Counted from the first letter of the stretch, positions 19,791 through 28,250 are shown. The stretch: DNA of 64,000 nt from Methylicorpusculum sp. (GCF_030651835.1 NZ_JAUSBX010000050.1:1-64000), one strand, 5' to 3'. Notes: generated from the letters alone by a model not told the origin. Translations and numbers: made by a program.

Positions 19791-19849
19791 TTATGACGGA
19801 ATTCTTAACAAAACTTTCCAGCTACTGTTGCAAAGCCAGGAACCGGAGC

Positions 19850-21733
19850 ATGAAAATCATCAACACTTTTACGATTTTTATGCTCTGGTGTTTTGTATCA
19901 GCCACCACTTCGGCGGCCACCTTCAACTATTTGTATATAGAAGCAAACGAAGGCAATTCCAGCGGCGGACACAGCGCGATACAATTTGGCGAATACATTT
20001 ACCATTATCAATACATCGACCCGGGTCTGATTCGTTTATTCAGACAAGATCCCAACGATTTTCACTTTTCCTACCGCTATTTGCAGAACCGGCCTATCCA
20101 TCTCAGCGAAATTGACGTCTCTGAAGCAACATTCAACACCCTGAACGATTATTTTCAGTGGCAGTTTTTAGACCAGGAACAGCATTACAAACATCTGGAA
20201 GCGGTCAATAAAGAATATCAATTGATTCAACAGCTGTTAGATAAGCCGGAAACTGATTCAACGCTGCGTCTTAAAGGCGCCGGTTTATTTTACCCAAGCA
20301 GTCAAACTAAGAGCCGGACTCCGGATGCCGATTTGGCAACCCGGCAATCCGGCATGATGATTGAGCTGCGAAATAAAATCGAACAACACCATGGCCGTGA
20401 TTTTTTAACTCATACGCGTCTTGCCCTTGAAGCAGAGATCAACGCATTAAAACCGCTAGACTGGTCGGCCGCTTATCCATTGCCGATCGAGAGCCAACGG
20501 CCCGCACCCCCCTATTCTTTTGCCGATCACTATAACGATGCTTTAACCGGCTTGTTTGCCATCAAAGTCTTGCAAGAGGCAAAGTCCTTGCAACCTGACG
20601 CTTTCTTCATGCTGGACCCGCAAACACAGCCATTGACTGACACCGAAAAAAAGCAGCTGGTCGTTTTGCGCCAGCAACTGGAAGCCACCCTGTTGCGATC
20701 ATTGAACTCGGGACGTCCGGATTGGGGCTACGCGGCAATCATCAATATGGCCCGCTACATTGCCGTTGATACGTCTCTGCAACAGGGGCAATGGGTTTTC
20801 CTCGATGGTTTTAGCGAAACAGCGCAATGGATAGAGCCTGCAGAATTTATAAATGACCCGCAACACATGGAACAACTGATTAGCGAGGCAAAATTGAGCC
20901 TGGATAATCTTCAGTCAACGCTGGTTCAATCCGATGCTTATTCTGAAAGCGAATACAGTGAACTGGAATTTGCAGCCAATCGATACGCTGAACTAGTGAA
21001 AGGGCAGCACCTGATGCCCCTCCGGTTTTACGGACAAAAGGCTCTCCCCAGTCTGGGCATCGATTTACCAAAAGACCCCAAACCCGATTTGTCCGAACAA
21101 CAACTGAAGGCAGCCTTAGTTGAACTGGACACTTATCGAAAGCAATGGATGGGCCAGTTAAAACAGCGCTACCAGTACGATCTGATCACGCGTAATTGCG
21201 TCACTGAAATTTTCCGCAGCATCGATAATGCACTGCTACAAAAAGCACCTCAGACCGAGTCCATCAAGGCACTCTCCAAGCAACATCTGGGTGGTTATGT
21301 CAAAGCTTCTTATAACTTCATACCGTTTGTGTCTTACCAATCAGTGCTTGATCAATACCGCATCAACCGCAGCGAAACCATGCCGTCATACCGGCAGCAG
21401 GAAATGACCAAGCGCTATCAAAATGGACAGCAACTACTTATCCGCCTGCAGGAATCCAATATCCTCAGCAGCACCTTGTATCGCTATAACCCGGAGGATG
21501 CCTTATTTATTTTTTTTACCGACGACAACACCCCGCTCAGACCCTTATTCGGTGCGATCAATACCACAACCGGTATCGGACAGAGCTTACTCGGCTTGTT
21601 GAGTTGGCCGTTTGATTCGGGAAAGAATTTAAAATCAGGCGCAACAGGTGTTTTAATGAGTCTGCCCGAACTGGTCTTTTTTAATATGCGCAAGGGCAGT
21701 TACAACTATCTACCCTACAAGAAAATGCAGTAA
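19850..21733 (+). CDS. DUF4105 protein, possible permuted papain-like enzyme
   Basis: The 627-residue product has a signal peptide (MKIINTFTIFMLWCFVSATTSAA) and a long DUF4105 region. Conserved marks are NSSGGHSAIQFG near the start (residues 35-45) and RNCVTEIF near residue 450. His-before-Cys order would fit a circularly permuted NlpC/P60-like thiol fold, but this is inference. The family is periplasmic or surface-associated, of unknown substrate. The frame extends upstream to 19793, but the ATG at 19850 precisely starts the signal peptide and has an AGGA site. Confidence 0.82.
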   Translation: MKIINTFTIFMLWCFVSATTSAATFNYLYIEANEGNSSGGHSAIQFGEYIYHYQYIDPGLIRLFRQDPNDFHFSYRYLQNRPIHLSEIDVSEATFNTLNDYFQWQFLDQEQHYKHLEAVNKEYQLIQQLLDKPETDSTLRLKGAGLFYPSSQTKSRTPDADLATRQSGMMIELRNKIEQHHGRDFLTHTRLALEAEINALKPLDWSAAYPLPIESQRPAPPYSFADHYNDALTGLFAIKVLQEAKSLQPDAFFMLDPQTQPLTDTEKKQLVVLRQQLEATLLRSLNSGRPDWGYAAIINMARYIAVDTSLQQGQWVFLDGFSETAQWIEPAEFINDPQHMEQLISEAKLSLDNLQSTLVQSDAYSESEYSELEFAANRYAELVKGQHLMPLRFYGQKALPSLGIDLPKDPKPDLSEQQLKAALVELDTYRKQWMGQLKQRYQYDLITRNCVTEIFRSIDNALLQKAPQTESIKALSKQHLGGYVKASYNFIPFVSYQSVLDQYRINRSETMPSYRQQEMTKRYQNGQQLLIRLQESNILSSTLYRYNPEDALFIFFTDDNTPLRPLFGAINTTTGIGQSLLGLLSWPFDSGKNLKSGATGVLMSLPELVFFNMRKGSYNYLPYKKMQ

Positions 21734-21810
21734 ACTCTCAAAAAAGTGAAATTAGTTTGCATAATTTGAAATTTTATTTCACATTCCTTTTTTCTATAAA
21801 AAATAACTCC

Positions 21811-21839: not shown

Positions 21840-21935
21840 TAGTTGGCCTATTGTTTGCTTTGTCTCTGGCTAGACAGGCAGTACGTACTTGTTTTGTCTT
21901 ATAACTATAAATTAAACCCTAATGAGGAGACACAG

Positions 21936-22589
21936 ATGAGCACCGATAAACCACCTTTAAACCCGCATCCGTTAAGTGAATATGTGGCCTGGGCCGGCAA
22001 CCGCAACCGCGAACCCATTCTTGGCGTATTGAAAGAAAAACTGCCCAAAGAATCAGGGCGCGTATTGGAAATGGCCAGCGGTAGCGGCATGCATATCAAT
22101 TATTTTGCCCCCCACTTCGATCACTTGCATTTTCATCCCTCTGATAGAGACGTTGAAGTCTTTGACAACATCAAAAATCTGACCAGCGAACACGGCAACG
22201 ACAATATTGCCGATCCCGTTCATCTTGATCTGACCGATCCCGAAACCTGGTTTAATCCGGGCGAAAAAAATTCTTTTGACGCCATTTTTTGTATCAATAT
22301 TTTTCAGGTTGCTCCCATTTCGATTGCTGACGGCATGATGGAATGCGCTTCACATCTGTTGAGCGATAATGGCGTTTTATTGATTTACGGCCCGTTTAAA
22401 ATGGAAGGCGGATTCACCACCGATTCAAACGAAGAATTCCATAAAACCTTGGCGTCTTATGAAGTGCCTGAATGGGGATTGAAAGATGTAGCCGATTTGA
22501 AAAAAGCGGCCGCTGCTCACGGCATGGAATTAAAAGAGATCATTGATATGCCTGCCAATAATTTTTCACTTATTTTCGGCCTCAAATAA
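21936..22589 (+). CDS. DUF938 SAM-dependent methyltransferase (UPF0585, METTL26-like)
   Basis: The 217-residue product is a class I methyltransferase fold of the DUF938 family. Motif I is VLEMASGSGMHINYFA (residues 44-59), the acidic loop is FHPSDRD, and DAIFCINIFQVAP is motif IV. The ending DMPANNFSLIF is conserved in the family. The substrate is unknown. The ATG has a strong GAGGAG site; in-frame upstream codons are rejected. It is the first gene of a compact four-gene unit with an SDR-like protein, DUF1326 and DUF2182. Confidence 0.9.
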   Translation: MSTDKPPLNPHPLSEYVAWAGNRNREPILGVLKEKLPKESGRVLEMASGSGMHINYFAPHFDHLHFHPSDRDVEVFDNIKNLTSEHGNDNIADPVHLDLTDPETWFNPGEKNSFDAIFCINIFQVAPISIADGMMECASHLLSDNGVLLIYGPFKMEGGFTTDSNEEFHKTLASYEVPEWGLKDVADLKKAAAAHGMELKEIIDMPANNFSLIFGLK

Positions 22590-22606
22590 AGCCTAAGGAA
22601 AGCGTC

Positions 22607-22696
22607 ATGTACCTGCTTCTCAACGAAATGTCAGATGCCGGCCGAAATAAAAGCGCTATTCCCGGCCTCTTAACTCAAACCAAACGGGATAACTGA
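22607..22696 (+). CDS. Possible 29-residue coupled peptide
   Basis: ATG at 22607 (AAGGA six bases upstream) opens a 29-codon frame, MYLLLNEMSDAGRNKSAIPG and nine more residues, whose TGA overlaps the next start (TGATG). It fills the only gap in the operon and would couple translation of the SDR gene to that of DUF938. The peptide itself matches nothing I know; it may be only a ribosome bridge. Confidence 0.3.
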   Translation: MYLLLNEMSDAGRNKSAIPGLLTQTKRDN

Positions 22697-23430
22697 TGAC
22701 ATCAACAAAGGCAGCTTTGGTTTTGGGCGTAGGCCCTGAGCGCGGTTTAGGTGCGGCGTTGGCAAGGCGTTTTGCTGCAGAAGGATTGCATGTTTTCATT
22801 GCCGGCCGCAGCCTGTCAAAATTGACTGCCGTTGCGGCCGGCATCAATGAATCAGGCTACTCAGCAACGCCCGTCGTTGCCGATGCTACCGTAGAGGCTG
22901 ATATTGTTAATCTGTTTAAAACTATTGGCCAAAGCCAATGCGAACTGGAAATTGCCGCTTATAACGTTGACAGTAATATTCCGGCACCACTGCTGGAAAC
23001 CGATGCGGCACTGTTTACATTACTCTGGCAGCAGAATGCGTTGGGCGCTTTCTTATTTGGAAAAGAGACGATCAAACACCTGCTGCCTCTACAGAGGGGA
23101 ACTTTGATTTTTAACGGCGCCACTGCCTCATTACGTGCAAAACCACCCTTCACGGCCTTCGCCGCAGCCAAGGCCGGTGTGCGGGCGTTGGCGCAAGGTA
23201 TGGCCAGAGAATTCGGGCCGCAGGGCATTCATGTGATTCATGCCGTTATCGATGGCGTCATCGACGGCGACCGGGCACGCGCACAATTTCCCCAATTCGT
23301 CAGCGCAAAAGGTCAGGACGGCTTATTACAGCCCGATGCGATTGCCGACACTTATTGGCAGCTACACAAACAACACCCAAGTGCTTGGACGCACGAAATT
23401 GATCTGCGTCCCTTCAAGGAGATATTCTAA
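22696..23430 (+). CDS. SDR-family oxidoreductase with altered active site
   Basis: The 244-residue product has a Rossmann nucleotide motif GVGPERGLGAAL (residues 11-22) and the order of a short-chain dehydrogenase. The usual YxxxK is FAAAK (Phe155, Lys159), and the position 13 residues before it, normally the catalytic Ser, is Ala142. The enzyme may therefore lack classic dehydrogenase chemistry, though nucleotide binding is likely kept. Its start overlaps an upstream stop and its TAA overlaps the DUF1326 ATG, so it is tightly coupled to both. Confidence 0.88.
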   Translation: MTSTKAALVLGVGPERGLGAALARRFAAEGLHVFIAGRSLSKLTAVAAGINESGYSATPVVADATVEADIVNLFKTIGQSQCELEIAAYNVDSNIPAPLLETDAALFTLLWQQNALGAFLFGKETIKHLLPLQRGTLIFNGATASLRAKPPFTAFAAAKAGVRALAQGMAREFGPQGIHVIHAVIDGVIDGDRARAQFPQFVSAKGQDGLLQPDAIADTYWQLHKQHPSAWTHEIDLRPFKEIF

Positions 23431-24041
23431 TGAACAACAACCACCCTGACTGGCGACTGGAAGGCCACTATTTTGAAACGTGTAATTGTGAATTGGCCTG
23501 TCCCTGTATTTGGTTACAGCCCCCTTCTGAAGGTAATTGTAAATTATTGGCAGCCTGGCATATCGATAAAGGCCATTTGGAAGATGTGGGCCTTGATAAC
23601 TTGAGCGTGGCTTTAGCGTGTTATGCGCCCGGCACCATGATTGATGGTAATTGGGGAGCTGCGTTGTATATTGATGAATTGGCGGATACGGAGCAAACCG
23701 AAGCCATTATTCAGATTTTCAGCGGCCAGGCAGGCGGCCACTTAAGCGTTCTGATGGGCTTCGTCAGTGAAGTCTGGGGCGTAAAATCGGTAACCATGGA
23801 CTATCAGCACTCCGGCGATATTCACCGGCTCATCATACCGGGTATTGCTGAAGCTGAAATTCAAAGCATCCAGGGCATAGCCGATGGTGATGCTACCATA
23901 AAAAACCCGCCCTTGTGCGTGGTGCCCAGTCATGCATCGGTGGTCTCCAAATCCAACTATTTCCGCTATCAGGATAATGATCAAGCCTGGAACTTTTCTC
24001 ATCGCAACGGATTTCACTCCCCGTTTATCTATCAACCCTGA
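23430..24041 (+). CDS. DUF1326 protein with CxCxxxCxC motif
   Basis: The 203-residue product begins with the family signature HYFETCNCELACPC: Cys18, Cys20, Cys24 and Cys26. Four closely spaced cysteines suggest a metal or redox site, though none is proven. The rest is a beta-rich DUF1326 fold with GNWGAALYID and FSGQAGG. There is no signal peptide. It overlaps the SDR stop by one base (TAATG) and is followed by a DUF2182 membrane protein, its usual partner in many genomes. Confidence 0.9.
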   Translation: MNNNHPDWRLEGHYFETCNCELACPCIWLQPPSEGNCKLLAAWHIDKGHLEDVGLDNLSVALACYAPGTMIDGNWGAALYIDELADTEQTEAIIQIFSGQAGGHLSVLMGFVSEVWGVKSVTMDYQHSGDIHRLIIPGIAEAEIQSIQGIADGDATIKNPPLCVVPSHASVVSKSNYFRYQDNDQAWNFSHRNGFHSPFIYQP

Positions 24042-24051
24042 TTAACTTTTC

Positions 24052-24798
24052 GTGCCGATTAAAACATTGATGGGCGTTGTCGCTCTTGTTTGTGCCGCCT
24101 GGGGTTATTTGTTTTATCACGCATGGCAAATGAGCCATATGCCCATGACAGCAATGTGGATGCCTCCCGCATCCTTGACACTCTGGCCGTTAACCGGCTT
24201 AATCTGGGTGTACAGCATGTGGGCGGTCATGATGGCGGCCATGATGCTACCAACCGCATTACCGATGATAGGGGCATTTTCCCGCTATGCCAAAAGCCGG
24301 CGGTTATCAACCGAGAACCTCTCCCACTGGTTTATCAGTGGATATTTAGTGGTATGGTTTGGCTTCAGCCTGGTACTGACCGGTTTGCAATGGTTGTTTC
24401 ACGGCATTGCCTGGTTGTCGCCGATGATGGAAAATCGTCATCCTTTCCTGGCTGCCGCTATTTTAATTGCCGCAGGCCTTTACCAATTCACTCCCATAAA
24501 AAACGCCTGTCTGCAACATTGCCGCACCCCTTTTGGATTTTTGATCAATGAATGGCGTCCCGGTCAATCCGGTGCCGTTCAAATGGGTATAAAGCATGGC
24601 ATCGATTGTCTGGGCTGTTGCTGGGTGCAAATGCTGCTGATGTTCGTTATCGGCGTAATGAACCTGTGGGGCATGATTTTTATCACCTTGCTGGTGATAG
24701 TTGAAAAATGGCTGCCGGGCAAAACAAAGGTAATCAGCCATTCTATCGGTATCTTTTTTCTGGCCTGGGCAGCTTATTGCCTTTCAATAGTCGGGTAA
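24052..24798 (+). CDS. DUF2182 integral membrane protein, predicted metal-binding
   Basis: The 248-residue product has about six hydrophobic segments. Family motifs are MWAVMMAAMMLPTALPM (residues 59-75), TPIKNACLQHC near 150, and HGIDCLGCCWVQM near 185, the last followed by VIGVMNLWGM. The paired Cys and His residues underlie the family label of predicted metal-binding membrane protein. The start is GTG at 24052 or ATG at 24070; the GTG is 11 bp after the DUF1326 stop. It likely works with DUF1326. Confidence 0.9.
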   Translation: MPIKTLMGVVALVCAAWGYLFYHAWQMSHMPMTAMWMPPASLTLWPLTGLIWVYSMWAVMMAAMMLPTALPMIGAFSRYAKSRRLSTENLSHWFISGYLVVWFGFSLVLTGLQWLFHGIAWLSPMMENRHPFLAAAILIAAGLYQFTPIKNACLQHCRTPFGFLINEWRPGQSGAVQMGIKHGIDCLGCCWVQMLLMFVIGVMNLWGMIFITLLVIVEKWLPGKTKVISHSIGIFFLAWAAYCLSIVG

Positions 24799-25175: not shown

Positions 25176-28100
25176 ATGTTTGATTACGCAAAATTAGCTC
25201 AACTCAGCCGCAGTCGCATTCTGTTCTACGCGATAACATCGGCTATGGTTGCCACCAGCCTGATTGTCGCGGCCATGGACCATTTGCTGAATGGTGAAGT
25301 ATCGGTTAATTATCTGATTACCGGCTTAGTCGCCTCATTTTGCGTCAGCGCCATTGTCAGCACGCTGTTGATCCAGTTGGCTAAGATACAATCGAACTTA
25401 ATCAAGAGTCAGTCTGAAACCCTTGAAAAACAGGGCATTATAAAAGAACTACAGACAACCCAGCACCTGTTGCAAACGATTATTGAAACCTTGCCGATCA
25501 GGGTATCGTGGAAAGATAAAGACCTGCGTTATGTGGGTTGTAACCAGCTGTTTGCAAAAAACGCAGGCTTGGACCACTCCGATGAGATAACGGCTAAAGA
25601 CGATTTTCAATTAAGCTGGAAAAAGAACGCTGAACGCTATCATGCCGATGAACAACAGGTCATATCGACCCATTGCCCACAACTGGGTGTTGAGGAACAT
25701 CAAACCACACCGGACGGCCGAGAAATTTGCCTTCGTACCTCTAAAATTCCACTTCTCAATAACGATGGAACCGTCCTGGGTTTACTGAGCATTTACGAAG
25801 ACATCACACCGCTGCAAAAAATCATGCAGGAACTCTGGCTGACTCAAACGGCCATTGCCAAAAGCAGAAGCTCGTTTTACCGGATAGACAGCCATGGCAC
25901 GATACTTTATGCGAATGATCATGTCTGTGAGGCCTTGGGTTATTCCCGCGAAGAAATTATCGGGCAGCCCGTGTGGCAATTTGACCCGGACTTCGCTGCA
26001 CAGGACTGGCCGCCGATGTGGGAAAACCTGAAACAACAAGGCTACATCAATATAGAAACCCGCCATCGCCGCAAAGACGGTTCTATCTTTCCAGTCGAAG
26101 TTGTCGGAAATTACATCGTCCATAACGGAGAGGAATATACATTCACGTTTGTTCAGGATATCAGCGATAGAAAAGAGATTGAGCAAAGTTTACGACTGAC
26201 TCAGTTTGCGATGGACAATGCCAGTATCGGCATCTACTGGATCGATCAACGCACCCGGATTTGCTATGCCAATAAACGCGCCTGCGAAATGCTGGGCTAT
26301 AGCGAAGAACAATTATTGAAGCTGTCATTAACCGATATAGATCCTGTATTTCCGTTTCAAAACTGGCAAAGCGCTTGGCAAGAACTGAAAAAAAATAAAA
26401 CGCGTATTATCGAAACCCTGCACCAACACCGTGACAGCCATTTACTAACCGTTGAAATCATTGCCAACCACGTCCAATTCGGCGAAACCGAGTACAGCGT
26501 CGCGTTTGTCAGCGATATCACCGAACGTAAATTAGCGGAGGAAAAGCTGCAACTGGCGGCTCGCGTATTCGGCGAGGCTCATGAAGGCATTATCATCACC
26601 GACGCCTTGGGAAACATGATTGATGTCAACCCTACTTTCTGCGAGATAACCGGCTATAGCCGTGAGCAAGTGATCGGCAAAAATCCAAGGATTTTGAATT
26701 CAGGCAAGCATTCCGATCTGTTTTTTGCCGATATCTGGCTAACCCTGGCAAAACAAAATTACTGGCAGGGTGAAGTCTGGAACCGCAAGAAAAACGGTGA
26801 ACTGTATGCGGAACTGCTATCCATTTCCGTCCTTCGCGACACGCAAGGCCGGGTCGTCAATTATATCGGCCTGTTTTCCGACATTACGGAAAGCAAGCAT
26901 CAACAGCTGGCACTGGAACGTCTCGCCCATTTTGATCCCTTGACCCAACTTCCCAATCGCACACTGTTCGGTGACCGGTTTAATCAGGCCATATCCCACA
27001 GCAAACGCAATCACTCCCTGCTGGCGATTTGCTTTGTCGACCTGGATGGTTTTAAACCAGTCAATGACAAATTCGGTCATGAGACGGGTGATCAGGTGTT
27101 GATTCAGGTTGCCGAAAGAATCAAAACACACTTGCGCGAAGAAGATACGGTATCGCGTTTGGGCGGCGACGAGTTTGCCCTGCTCATCGGAGAAATGGAC
27201 TCGATAGACCATTGCTGTCAAACAATGATCCGCATCCACAAGGCCATTTCTGAAGCTTATTATATTAATCACCAGGTCATTACTATTTCCGCATCCAGCG
27301 GCATTACGCTATACCCATTGGACGACTCGGCACCTGACACCTTGATACGCCATGCCGATCATGCGATGTATCAGGCCAAACTGGCCGGGAAAAATCGTTT
27401 TCATCTATTCGATAATGCCAATAAGAAAGATATTATCAGACTGCACAGCCAGCTAGACGAAATTGCTGACGCTTTTCAACAAGGTCAATTTTGTCTTTAT
27501 TACCAACCCAAAGTGAATATGCAGACGGGGCATATCTTCGGCATGGAATCGCTGCTGCGCTGGCAGCACCCATCAAGCGGGCTCACCACCCCGGAGGATT
27601 TTTTATCCCTTGTCCAGTGTTCGCAACTCGAGATAGATATCGGTAACTGGGTCATTGAACAAGCGCTTGATCAATTGGATCACTGGTTAAAACAAGGCTT
27701 GAATCTGGAATTGAGCATCAACATTTCTTATTATCAATTACTCAACAGCGATTTCATTAGTCACCTGACTGAAACACTCGCCAAACACCCGGCGATAGCT
27801 CCGAAAAATCTTCAGCTGGAACTACTAGAAAGCACTGCTTTAGGTGATCTGAATGCCGTTGCCGGCATCCTTAATATCTGCAGCAGCCAGCTAGGGGTCA
27901 AGATTGCTCTGGACGACTTTGGTGCCGGCTATTCGTCGCTAACCCACATGCGCCATTTACCTGCCGACACCATTAAATTAGACTACAGCTTCGTGCGCAA
28001 CATGCTGACCAATACTCGTGATGATGCGATCATCAAGGGTGTTATTGCCTTGTCCCATGCTTTCAAGCGGCAAGTGATCGCCGAGGGCGTGGAAACCGTT

Positions 28101-28250
28101 GAGCAGGGTTTGCACTTGTTGGCATTGGATTGCCAGCTCGCGCAAGGCTTTACTATCGCGGCGCCCATGCCACCTGAGTCCATAATCAACTGGATAGCCA
28201 GTTACCGGGTTTGCCCGGAATGGCATGACTTTAACCCGGATAAAAATTAG
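25176..28250 (+). CDS. PAS4-GGDEF-EAL membrane signalling protein
   Basis: The 1024-residue product has two membrane helices (about 13-35 and 45-68), four PAS domains (about 93-212, 222-333, 338-452, 458-573), a GGDEF domain and an EAL domain. GGDEF is intact at 663-667 with an inhibitory I-site RxxD (654-657) five residues before it. The EAL signature is ESL (791-793), with DDFGAGYS and EGVET kept. It can therefore probably both make and degrade cyclic di-GMP, or one domain may regulate the other. PAS domains would sense redox, light or small ligands. A small secreted protein gene follows by 34 bp. Confidence 0.95.
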   Translation: MFDYAKLAQLSRSRILFYAITSAMVATSLIVAAMDHLLNGEVSVNYLITGLVASFCVSAIVSTLLIQLAKIQSNLIKSQSETLEKQGIIKELQTTQHLLQTIIETLPIRVSWKDKDLRYVGCNQLFAKNAGLDHSDEITAKDDFQLSWKKNAERYHADEQQVISTHCPQLGVEEHQTTPDGREICLRTSKIPLLNNDGTVLGLLSIYEDITPLQKIMQELWLTQTAIAKSRSSFYRIDSHGTILYANDHVCEALGYSREEIIGQPVWQFDPDFAAQDWPPMWENLKQQGYINIETRHRRKDGSIFPVEVVGNYIVHNGEEYTFTFVQDISDRKEIEQSLRLTQFAMDNASIGIYWIDQRTRICYANKRACEMLGYSEEQLLKLSLTDIDPVFPFQNWQSAWQELKKNKTRIIETLHQHRDSHLLTVEIIANHVQFGETEYSVAFVSDITERKLAEEKLQLAARVFGEAHEGIIITDALGNMIDVNPTFCEITGYSREQVIGKNPRILNSGKHSDLFFADIWLTLAKQNYWQGEVWNRKKNGELYAELLSISVLRDTQGRVVNYIGLFSDITESKHQQLALERLAHFDPLTQLPNRTLFGDRFNQAISHSKRNHSLLAICFVDLDGFKPVNDKFGHETGDQVLIQVAERIKTHLREEDTVSRLGGDEFALLIGEMDSIDHCCQTMIRIHKAISEAYYINHQVITISASSGITLYPLDDSAPDTLIRHADHAMYQAKLAGKNRFHLFDNANKKDIIRLHSQLDEIADAFQQGQFCLYYQPKVNMQTGHIFGMESLLRWQHPSSGLTTPEDFLSLVQCSQLEIDIGNWVIEQALDQLDHWLKQGLNLELSINISYYQLLNSDFISHLTETLAKHPAIAPKNLQLELLESTALGDLNAVAGILNICSSQLGVKIALDDFGAGYSSLTHMRHLPADTIKLDYSFVRNMLTNTRDDAIIKGVIALSHAFKRQVIAEGVETVEQGLHLLALDCQLAQGFTIAAPMPPESIINWIASYRVCPEWHDFNPDKN

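Follow-up and report, generated by a model that had tools for sequence, protein, structure and literature searches.

The membrane protein family PF09948, formerly DUF2182, is now named PpoB2 and described as 'Copper chaperone'. The Marinomonas PpoB2 takes part in transferring copper to a tyrosinase, and transfer of copper to a cuproenzyme by this family has been shown for that member alone (PMC2855505). Other described systems bear on the locus studied here: the SBP56 family is a Cu-dependent methanethiol oxidase (PMC5739008), and the MetOD1 domain has been reported as a relative of the phenol-sensing V4R domains of PoxR/MopR and of ATC hydrolase, with a shared Cys cluster (PMC5847659). The original prediction had included DUF2182 among the uncharacterised families of a four-gene operon in Methylicorpusculum sp.; this description does not hold, since the PpoB2 family has a studied member in Marinomonas (PMC2855505).

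The window, that is, the whole stretch of 64,000 nucleotides that was analysed, carries on its + strand the collinear genes for DUF938, SDR-like, DUF1326 and DUF2182/PpoB2 proteins (Table 1). ORF positions and matches to the profiles PF06080, PF00106, PF07040 and PF09948 placed the four genes exactly where they had been predicted. The junctions proposed for them were correct in part. The stop codon of the SDR gene and the start codon of DUF1326 have one base in common (TAATG), as described, but the TGATG assigned to DUF938 and the SDR belongs to the junction of a mini-ORF with the SDR gene, DUF938 and SDR being separated by 106 bp, and the gap between DUF1326 and PpoB2, whose start is a GTG codon at 24052, is 10 bp instead of 11 bp. 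The mini-ORF is probably not a gene, because its frame is disrupted in both same-genus relatives, with an in-frame stop in one of them and no stop ahead of the SDR start in the other. Sigma-70-type promoter counts across the operon region were at chance level. Upstream of the operon, positions 19793-21733 code for a 646-aa protein with a signal-like N-terminus and no Pfam match above the cut-off, which adjoins the operon in the same genus only. The region directly downstream (25176-28250) codes for a PAS-GGDEF-EAL protein, and only short fragments of it were present in the same-genus relative L037.

Table 1. Coordinates of the genes, motifs and predicted control elements of the operon in the window
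Feature	Position	Strand	Evidence
Upstream activator dyad 1, TGAAATTAGTTTGCA, 10/12 consensus positions, 96 bp before the -24 element (predicted)	21747..21761	+	Paired dyads are a conserved feature of REG-lineage promoters
Upstream activator dyad 2, TGAAATTTTATTTCA, 12/12 consensus positions, 76 bp before the -24 element (predicted)	21767..21781	+	Paired-dyad architecture
Sigma-54 -24/-12 element, TTGGC-N7-TTGCT (predicted)	21843..21859	+	Element scores as high at 24/31 DUF938 upstream regions vs 3/411 controls
DUF938 SAM-dependent methyltransferase-like protein, 217 aa	21936..22589	+	PF06080 5.6e-58
Mini-ORF, 29 codons, probably not a gene	22607..22696	+	Frame broken in same-genus relatives
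SDR-fold protein, 244 aa, Phe155-x3-Lys159 replacing Tyr-x3-Lys	22696..23430	+	PF00106 3.1e-25
DUF1326 protein, 203 aa, predicted acetoacetate-decarboxylase-like fold	23430..24041	+	PF07040 5.8e-54; model pLDDT 93.6
DUF1326 codons C18 to C37, CxCx3CxCx10C	23481..23540	+	Invariant in 27 sequences
PpoB2-family (formerly DUF2182) membrane protein, 248 aa	24052..24798	+	PF09948 3.2e-68; conserved Cys/Met; helical model pLDDT 93.7

A gene-neighbourhood survey, for which lack of linkage in relatives had been fixed in advance as the refuting outcome, showed that the four genes are linked in Methylococcales and in other lineages. DUF1326 was found in 17 of 61 relatives and PpoB2 above the cut-off in 17/61, both lying side by side in 16/61, and all four genes were collinear in 12 of the 17 Methylococcales genomes having DUF1326. 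The other five comprised two genomes whose assembly is broken inside the cassette (the other half was at a contig end), one without DUF938, one with the pair only and one with a decayed cassette. Gene order is also kept in Nitrosomonas (three Nitrosomonas-titled records of one species set and a fourth, L021-L024), in another gammaproteobacterial MAG (L025) and in two genomes of a phylum sample (L081, L090); one alphaproteobacterium is among the carriers of this order. At L042 8129-9116 (G009) a decaying cassette was observed, in which DUF1326 is cut to about 74 codons and PpoB2 is gone, with the genes for the SDR, DUF938 and a beta-carbonic-anhydrase-like protein (BCA, see below) intact. In the phylum sample, PpoB2 was beside DUF1326 at 36 of the 40 DUF1326 loci, with DUF938 and the SDR only at L081 and L090. 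These data indicate that the four-gene linkage is far beyond chance and bear out the co-occurrence of DUF1326 and DUF2182 in both the relatives and the phylum sample; DUF1326-PpoB2 is a widespread unit, and the four-gene cassette is a rare extension of it.

When neighbouring genes were clustered, 12 loci had a divergent gene, REG, coding for about 520 aa, and 8 loci had the BCA gene. Where relatives lack DUF1326-PpoB2, REG is transcribed divergently from DUF938-BCA-SDR or DUF938-BCA. The 'four-gene operon' thus stood as a set of linked genes but not in its extent, as the unit is larger in most relatives, with a divergent sigma-54 activator and a beta-CA-like gene. It is better read as two modules, each also found apart: module A, DUF938-SDR, usually with BCA, and module B, DUF1326-PpoB2. 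Altogether, the four genes form a genuine operon that is conserved and regulated and that combines its parts in an undescribed way, and its proposed status as a single transcription unit is supported. In the literature searched, no description of the four-gene set was found, in agreement with the original claim that no function had been described for it; DUF1326, DUF2182 and DUF938 were not found there, and COG5486 appeared only in the Marinomonas review. The closest named record was a Methylomicrobium MAG with a 93% identical DUF1326.

Analysis of module B showed a DUF1326 match to PF07040 of 183.3 bits (cut-off 25). Residues C18, C20, C24, C26 and C37 are invariant in 27 aligned sequences, the most distant of them 22% identical to the window protein, which confirms the predicted CxCxxxCxC motif and adds C37 as a fifth invariant cysteine. 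Loss of these cysteines among DUF1326 orthologues was the other refuting outcome set beforehand; with their invariance in the 27 sequences, the proposal of conserved metal-type cysteines is supported. PpoB2 matched PF09948 with 229.8 bits (cut-off 28.7) and is a polytopic membrane protein with a helical model, whose residues M60, M65, C157, C186 and C190 are invariant in 29 sequences. Of the paired Cys/His motifs predicted for this protein, the cysteines were confirmed and the histidines were not, the conserved ligand-type residues being Cys and Met.

The DUF1326 model is similar in fold to members of the acetoacetate decarboxylase superfamily (Foldseek probability 1.00, E 5e-6, TM only 0.3-0.5), and VIA-align gave Z 10-11 over 150-163 of 203 residues with rmsd 3.2-5.1, the next group reaching Z of about 8. 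No invariant or nearly invariant Lys, the Schiff-base residue of decarboxylases, was found in the DUF1326 alignment, so decarboxylase chemistry is unlikely; judged by its model, DUF1326 is a fold relative only of the acetoacetate decarboxylase enzymes. For the PpoB2 model, Foldseek gave no match in the PDB with E under 0.001, and sequence searches for solved relatives of DUF1326, PpoB2, DUF938 and the REG sensor gave none. Family evidence and conserved residues indicate that DUF1326-PpoB2 is probably a copper-chaperone pair; the fold match of DUF1326 to decarboxylases, and not to a known chaperone, speaks against this reading.

With regard to module A, DUF938 matched PF06080 (196.5 bits, cut-off 27) more strongly than it matched general methyltransferase profiles, and its counterparts in cassettes outside the genus are 65-84% identical to it. 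The prediction of an SDR-like protein without the catalytic Tyr was borne out, since this residue is replaced by Phe155 in 21/21 orthologues and in 28 wider relatives, with Lys159 kept. The protein has an SDR fold and is not filed as a classical SDR oxidoreductase, the Tyr-x3-Lys pair being absent; its nearest solved relative is 3h7a, and it presumably fits the Tyr-less SDR subgroup called SDR_c10 in CDD. No plasmid copy of the cassette SDR was found. BCA, a Pro_CA protein, is absent from the window operon. It matches class D (Rv1284-type) beta-carbonic anhydrases, and also COS and CS2 hydrolases; a role as COS/CS2 hydrolase was rejected, since plain beta-CAs (5ztp, 3las, 1ylk) are closer to it. 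The possibility that the DUF938-SDR gap, with its mini-ORF, is a remnant of BCA was also discarded, since the alignment was no better than those of shuffles.

REG is a sigma-54 activator composed of an N-terminal MetOD1 sensor, an AAA+ domain with a GAFTGA loop and a Fis-type HTH. Domain searches of the sensor, in which three cysteines are invariant, gave MetOD1 only, with XylR_N and V4R absent. REG is divergent to DUF938 at most loci; in the window genome and its congeners, REG is paired divergently with BCA instead, both away from the operon, and the intact REG gene (515 aa) is located on a contig other than that of the window (G000:C76:16614-18161). REG-type long frames were present in 26 of 61 relatives, cassette genomes included, with only a fragment in G009. 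The genome G028 has two REG-type genes 15 kb apart (G028:C1:3909173 and G028:C1:3924554), of which the cassette-adjoining one is truncated to about 200 codons. Contig C76 also carries, some 2.5 kb away from BCA, a locus (L121 11738-13970) comprising an MNIO RiPP-maturase gene (HvfB family 435 bits, BufB 272 bits), its DUF2063 partner and a small, Cys-rich ORF resembling a precursor; both same-genus relatives conserve it. Bufferin-type systems are linked to copper.

The region upstream of DUF938 contains the only exact TTGGC-N7-TTGCW occurrence in the window. When start codons were set by alignment, a high-scoring -24/-12 element was found before DUF938 far more often than before other ORFs (24/31 loci vs 3/411; rank test p 3e-14, with independence overstated by the relatedness of the loci). 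A palindrome search revealed that the sequence TGAAAT-N3-ATTTCA recurs across DUF938 upstream regions; among shuffled regions, no five-base dyad was shared by more than two. The dyads are paired with a spacing of 20 bp. Relative to the -24 element, a pair lies at about -97/-77 or at about -87/-67; the two placements differ by ten bases and keep the same helical face. Dyad pairs with a score of at least 18 were present in 19 of 25 REG-lineage DUF938 promoters, in 0/6 from lineages without adjacent REG and in 0/378 controls. The REG-BCA spacer on C76 also contains this dyad pair, accompanied by a weaker -24/-12 match, and this coincidence ties the window operon to the non-adjoining REG, which would bind the dyads at 21747-21781. 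With promoter and dyads at conserved spacing and a cognate activator in the genome, the window operon is predicted to belong to a sigma-54/enhancer-binding-protein regulon. The cassettes of Nitrosomonas and of the alphaproteobacterium have neither dyads nor an adjoining REG, which limits the evidence for REG/dyad control to the Methylococcales lineage and L025.

The distribution of the cassette was compared with that of copper membrane monooxygenases (CuMMO). In the phylum sample (299 genomes), PF02461 was present only in G000, G162 and G247, and these are also the three genomes with the cassette SDR and its neighbours. The class sample (369 genomes) was searched with one profile joining SDR and PmoA, scoring the best four candidates per genome; PmoA/AmoA was detected in 11 genomes and the cassette SDR in three (G000, G011, G162), all among the 11. 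Taking both samples together, 4/4 genomes with the cassette SDR also have a CuMMO. When G000, present in the samples by construction, was left out, the chance of such coincidence was about 2e-5 in the phylum sample and 7e-4 in the class sample, values that ignore kinship and come from samples sharing G162. The L025 and L022 genomes also carry a CuMMO gene, and the search gave no match in the cassette genomes G040 and G361 (Nitrosomonas MAG). Carriers of the cassette are almost exclusively bacteria that have a copper methane or ammonia monooxygenase. Most CuMMO genomes lack it, which indicates an accessory of CuMMO bacteria and not a general part of enzyme biogenesis; likewise, DUF1326-PpoB2 cannot be a general need of pMMO, because the pair is in only 16/61 relatives. 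No cuproenzyme gene adjoins the operon within the window.

Module B also occurs in a different context. At eight loci of one alphaproteobacterial family, DUF1326-PpoB2 adjoins the DMSP demethylase DmdA, identified with 697 and 667 bits in the two loci tested (cut-off 410), and an AcuI-family reductase. In Marinovum algicola pMaD9, the pair precedes an acyl-CoA synthetase, DmdA, an alcohol dehydrogenase-type gene and SBP56. Taken together with the Marinomonas tyrosinase case (PMC2855505), these DMSP loci, with SBP56 at the Marinovum one, suggest that DUF1326-PpoB2 is a copper-delivery pair that joins different copper enzymes. Roseobacter plasmids (L238, L239) carry the pair within DMSP demethylation operons, and the papers found describe no copper pair for this pathway. 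SBP56/MtoX was rejected as the specific client in Methylococcales, since it is present in 49/61 relatives whether or not the pair is.

We favour, with about an even chance of being right, an inducible two-module operon under REG, whose sensing of a small ligand would lead DUF1326-PpoB2 to provide a cuproenzyme with copper. This proposal builds on the gene order and its conservation, the invariant residues, the promoter architecture, the intact split-off REG and the association with CuMMO genomes. REG, acting in trans from another contig in this genus, would detect the ligand through its three-cysteine MetOD1 sensor, bind the dyads and open the -24/-12 promoter ahead of DUF938. Copper would be the metal, held as copper(I) by the five invariant cysteines of DUF1326 and handed on by PpoB2 in the membrane, via its Cys/Met residues, to a client that may be a CuMMO or other copper oxidase of C1 or sulfur metabolism. 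Module A (DUF938, SDR and usually BCA) would act on the compound sensed by REG.

A possible, if doubtful, alternative is an inducible pathway whose substrate is a small organic compound (an aromatic, an organosulfur compound or another product of monooxygenase co-oxidation), sensed by REG and converted by the methyltransferase, SDR and BCA, with DUF1326-PpoB2 only feeding copper or redox power to a pathway oxidase and copper being incidental. It fits a regulon core of REG and DUF938-BCA-SDR, often without DUF1326-PpoB2, the reported kinship of MetOD1 with V4R phenol sensors and ATC hydrolase (PMC5847659), and the location of the pair in alphaproteobacterial DMSP demethylation operons. However, no substrate or further pathway gene is conserved beside the regulon, plain beta-CAs are closer to BCA than COS or CS2 hydrolase is, and the SDR lacks the classical catalytic Tyr. 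The cysteines of DUF1326 and of the REG sensor, and the Cys/Met residues of PpoB2, would also suit a metal-stress operon, with DUF1326 and PpoB2 binding or exporting excess copper or another soft metal and the REG cysteines sensing the metal directly. We consider this unlikely: Marinomonas PpoB2 serves supply and not resistance (PMC2855505), no efflux pump, CopC-type or P-type ATPase families were seen in the cassettes, and module A has no obvious place in such an operon. The fold match of the DUF1326 model raises the further idea that this protein, with an acetoacetate-decarboxylase fold, works through its cysteines as an enzyme or redox protein and that PpoB2 is its redox partner instead of a copper carrier; the missing invariant lysine and the PpoB2 family evidence, which favours copper, make this very improbable.

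Beyond the preferred reading of an inducible copper-supply operon, a regulon specific to CuMMO bacteria may be envisaged, in which REG, through its three-cysteine sensor, detects a monooxygenase-linked compound and induces the enzyme set together with DUF1326-PpoB2, which would load or repair the monooxygenase's own copper site. We regard this as rather unlikely; if true, it would be an unseen route of pMMO/AMO maturation or stress common to methanotrophs and ammonia oxidisers. Little is established about how methane and ammonia oxidisers deliver copper to pMMO/AMO and their other copper oxidases, and the operon offers a concrete candidate for this route, with a probable chaperone pair, a predicted inducible promoter, a nameable regulator and readable sites within one genome, and a near-exclusive link to CuMMO. 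In addition, DUF1326 gains a predicted fold, and DUF938 and the Tyr-less SDR are placed in a defined regulon.

Regarding its likeness to known systems, the regulon shares with class D (Rv1284-type) beta-carbonic anhydrases and with COS and CS2 hydrolases a BCA that matches them; it differs from COS hydrolase 3vqj in that BCA, lying outside the window operon, is closer to plain beta-CAs. REG works like DmpR/XylR activators and is not filed as one. It has in common with DmpR/MopR/PoxR-type activators the sensor-AAA+-Fis HTH layout, a sensor Cys cluster, upstream dyads and a -24/-12 promoter, whereas those activators, devoted to aromatic catabolism, have an XylR_N plus V4R sensor in place of MetOD1, and the predicted target of REG is a methyltransferase/SDR/copper operon. 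The alphaproteobacterial DMSP operons (Marinovum pMaD9, L238; Antarctobacter, L239) also have adjacent PpoB2 and DUF1326 genes, but the order of the pair is reversed, the regulator is of GntR type, DmdA and an AcuI-like gene lie downstream, with a DmdB-like gene and SBP56 further present in Marinovum, and DUF938 and SDR are missing. Finally, the ppoB1-ppoB2 tyrosinase operon of Marinomonas mediterranea contains the same PpoB2 membrane family (COG5486, PF09948; PMC2855505); in contrast to that operon, PpoB2 of the window has no adjoining tyrosinase, is partnered with DUF1326 and module A, and has a predicted sigma-54 promoter ahead.
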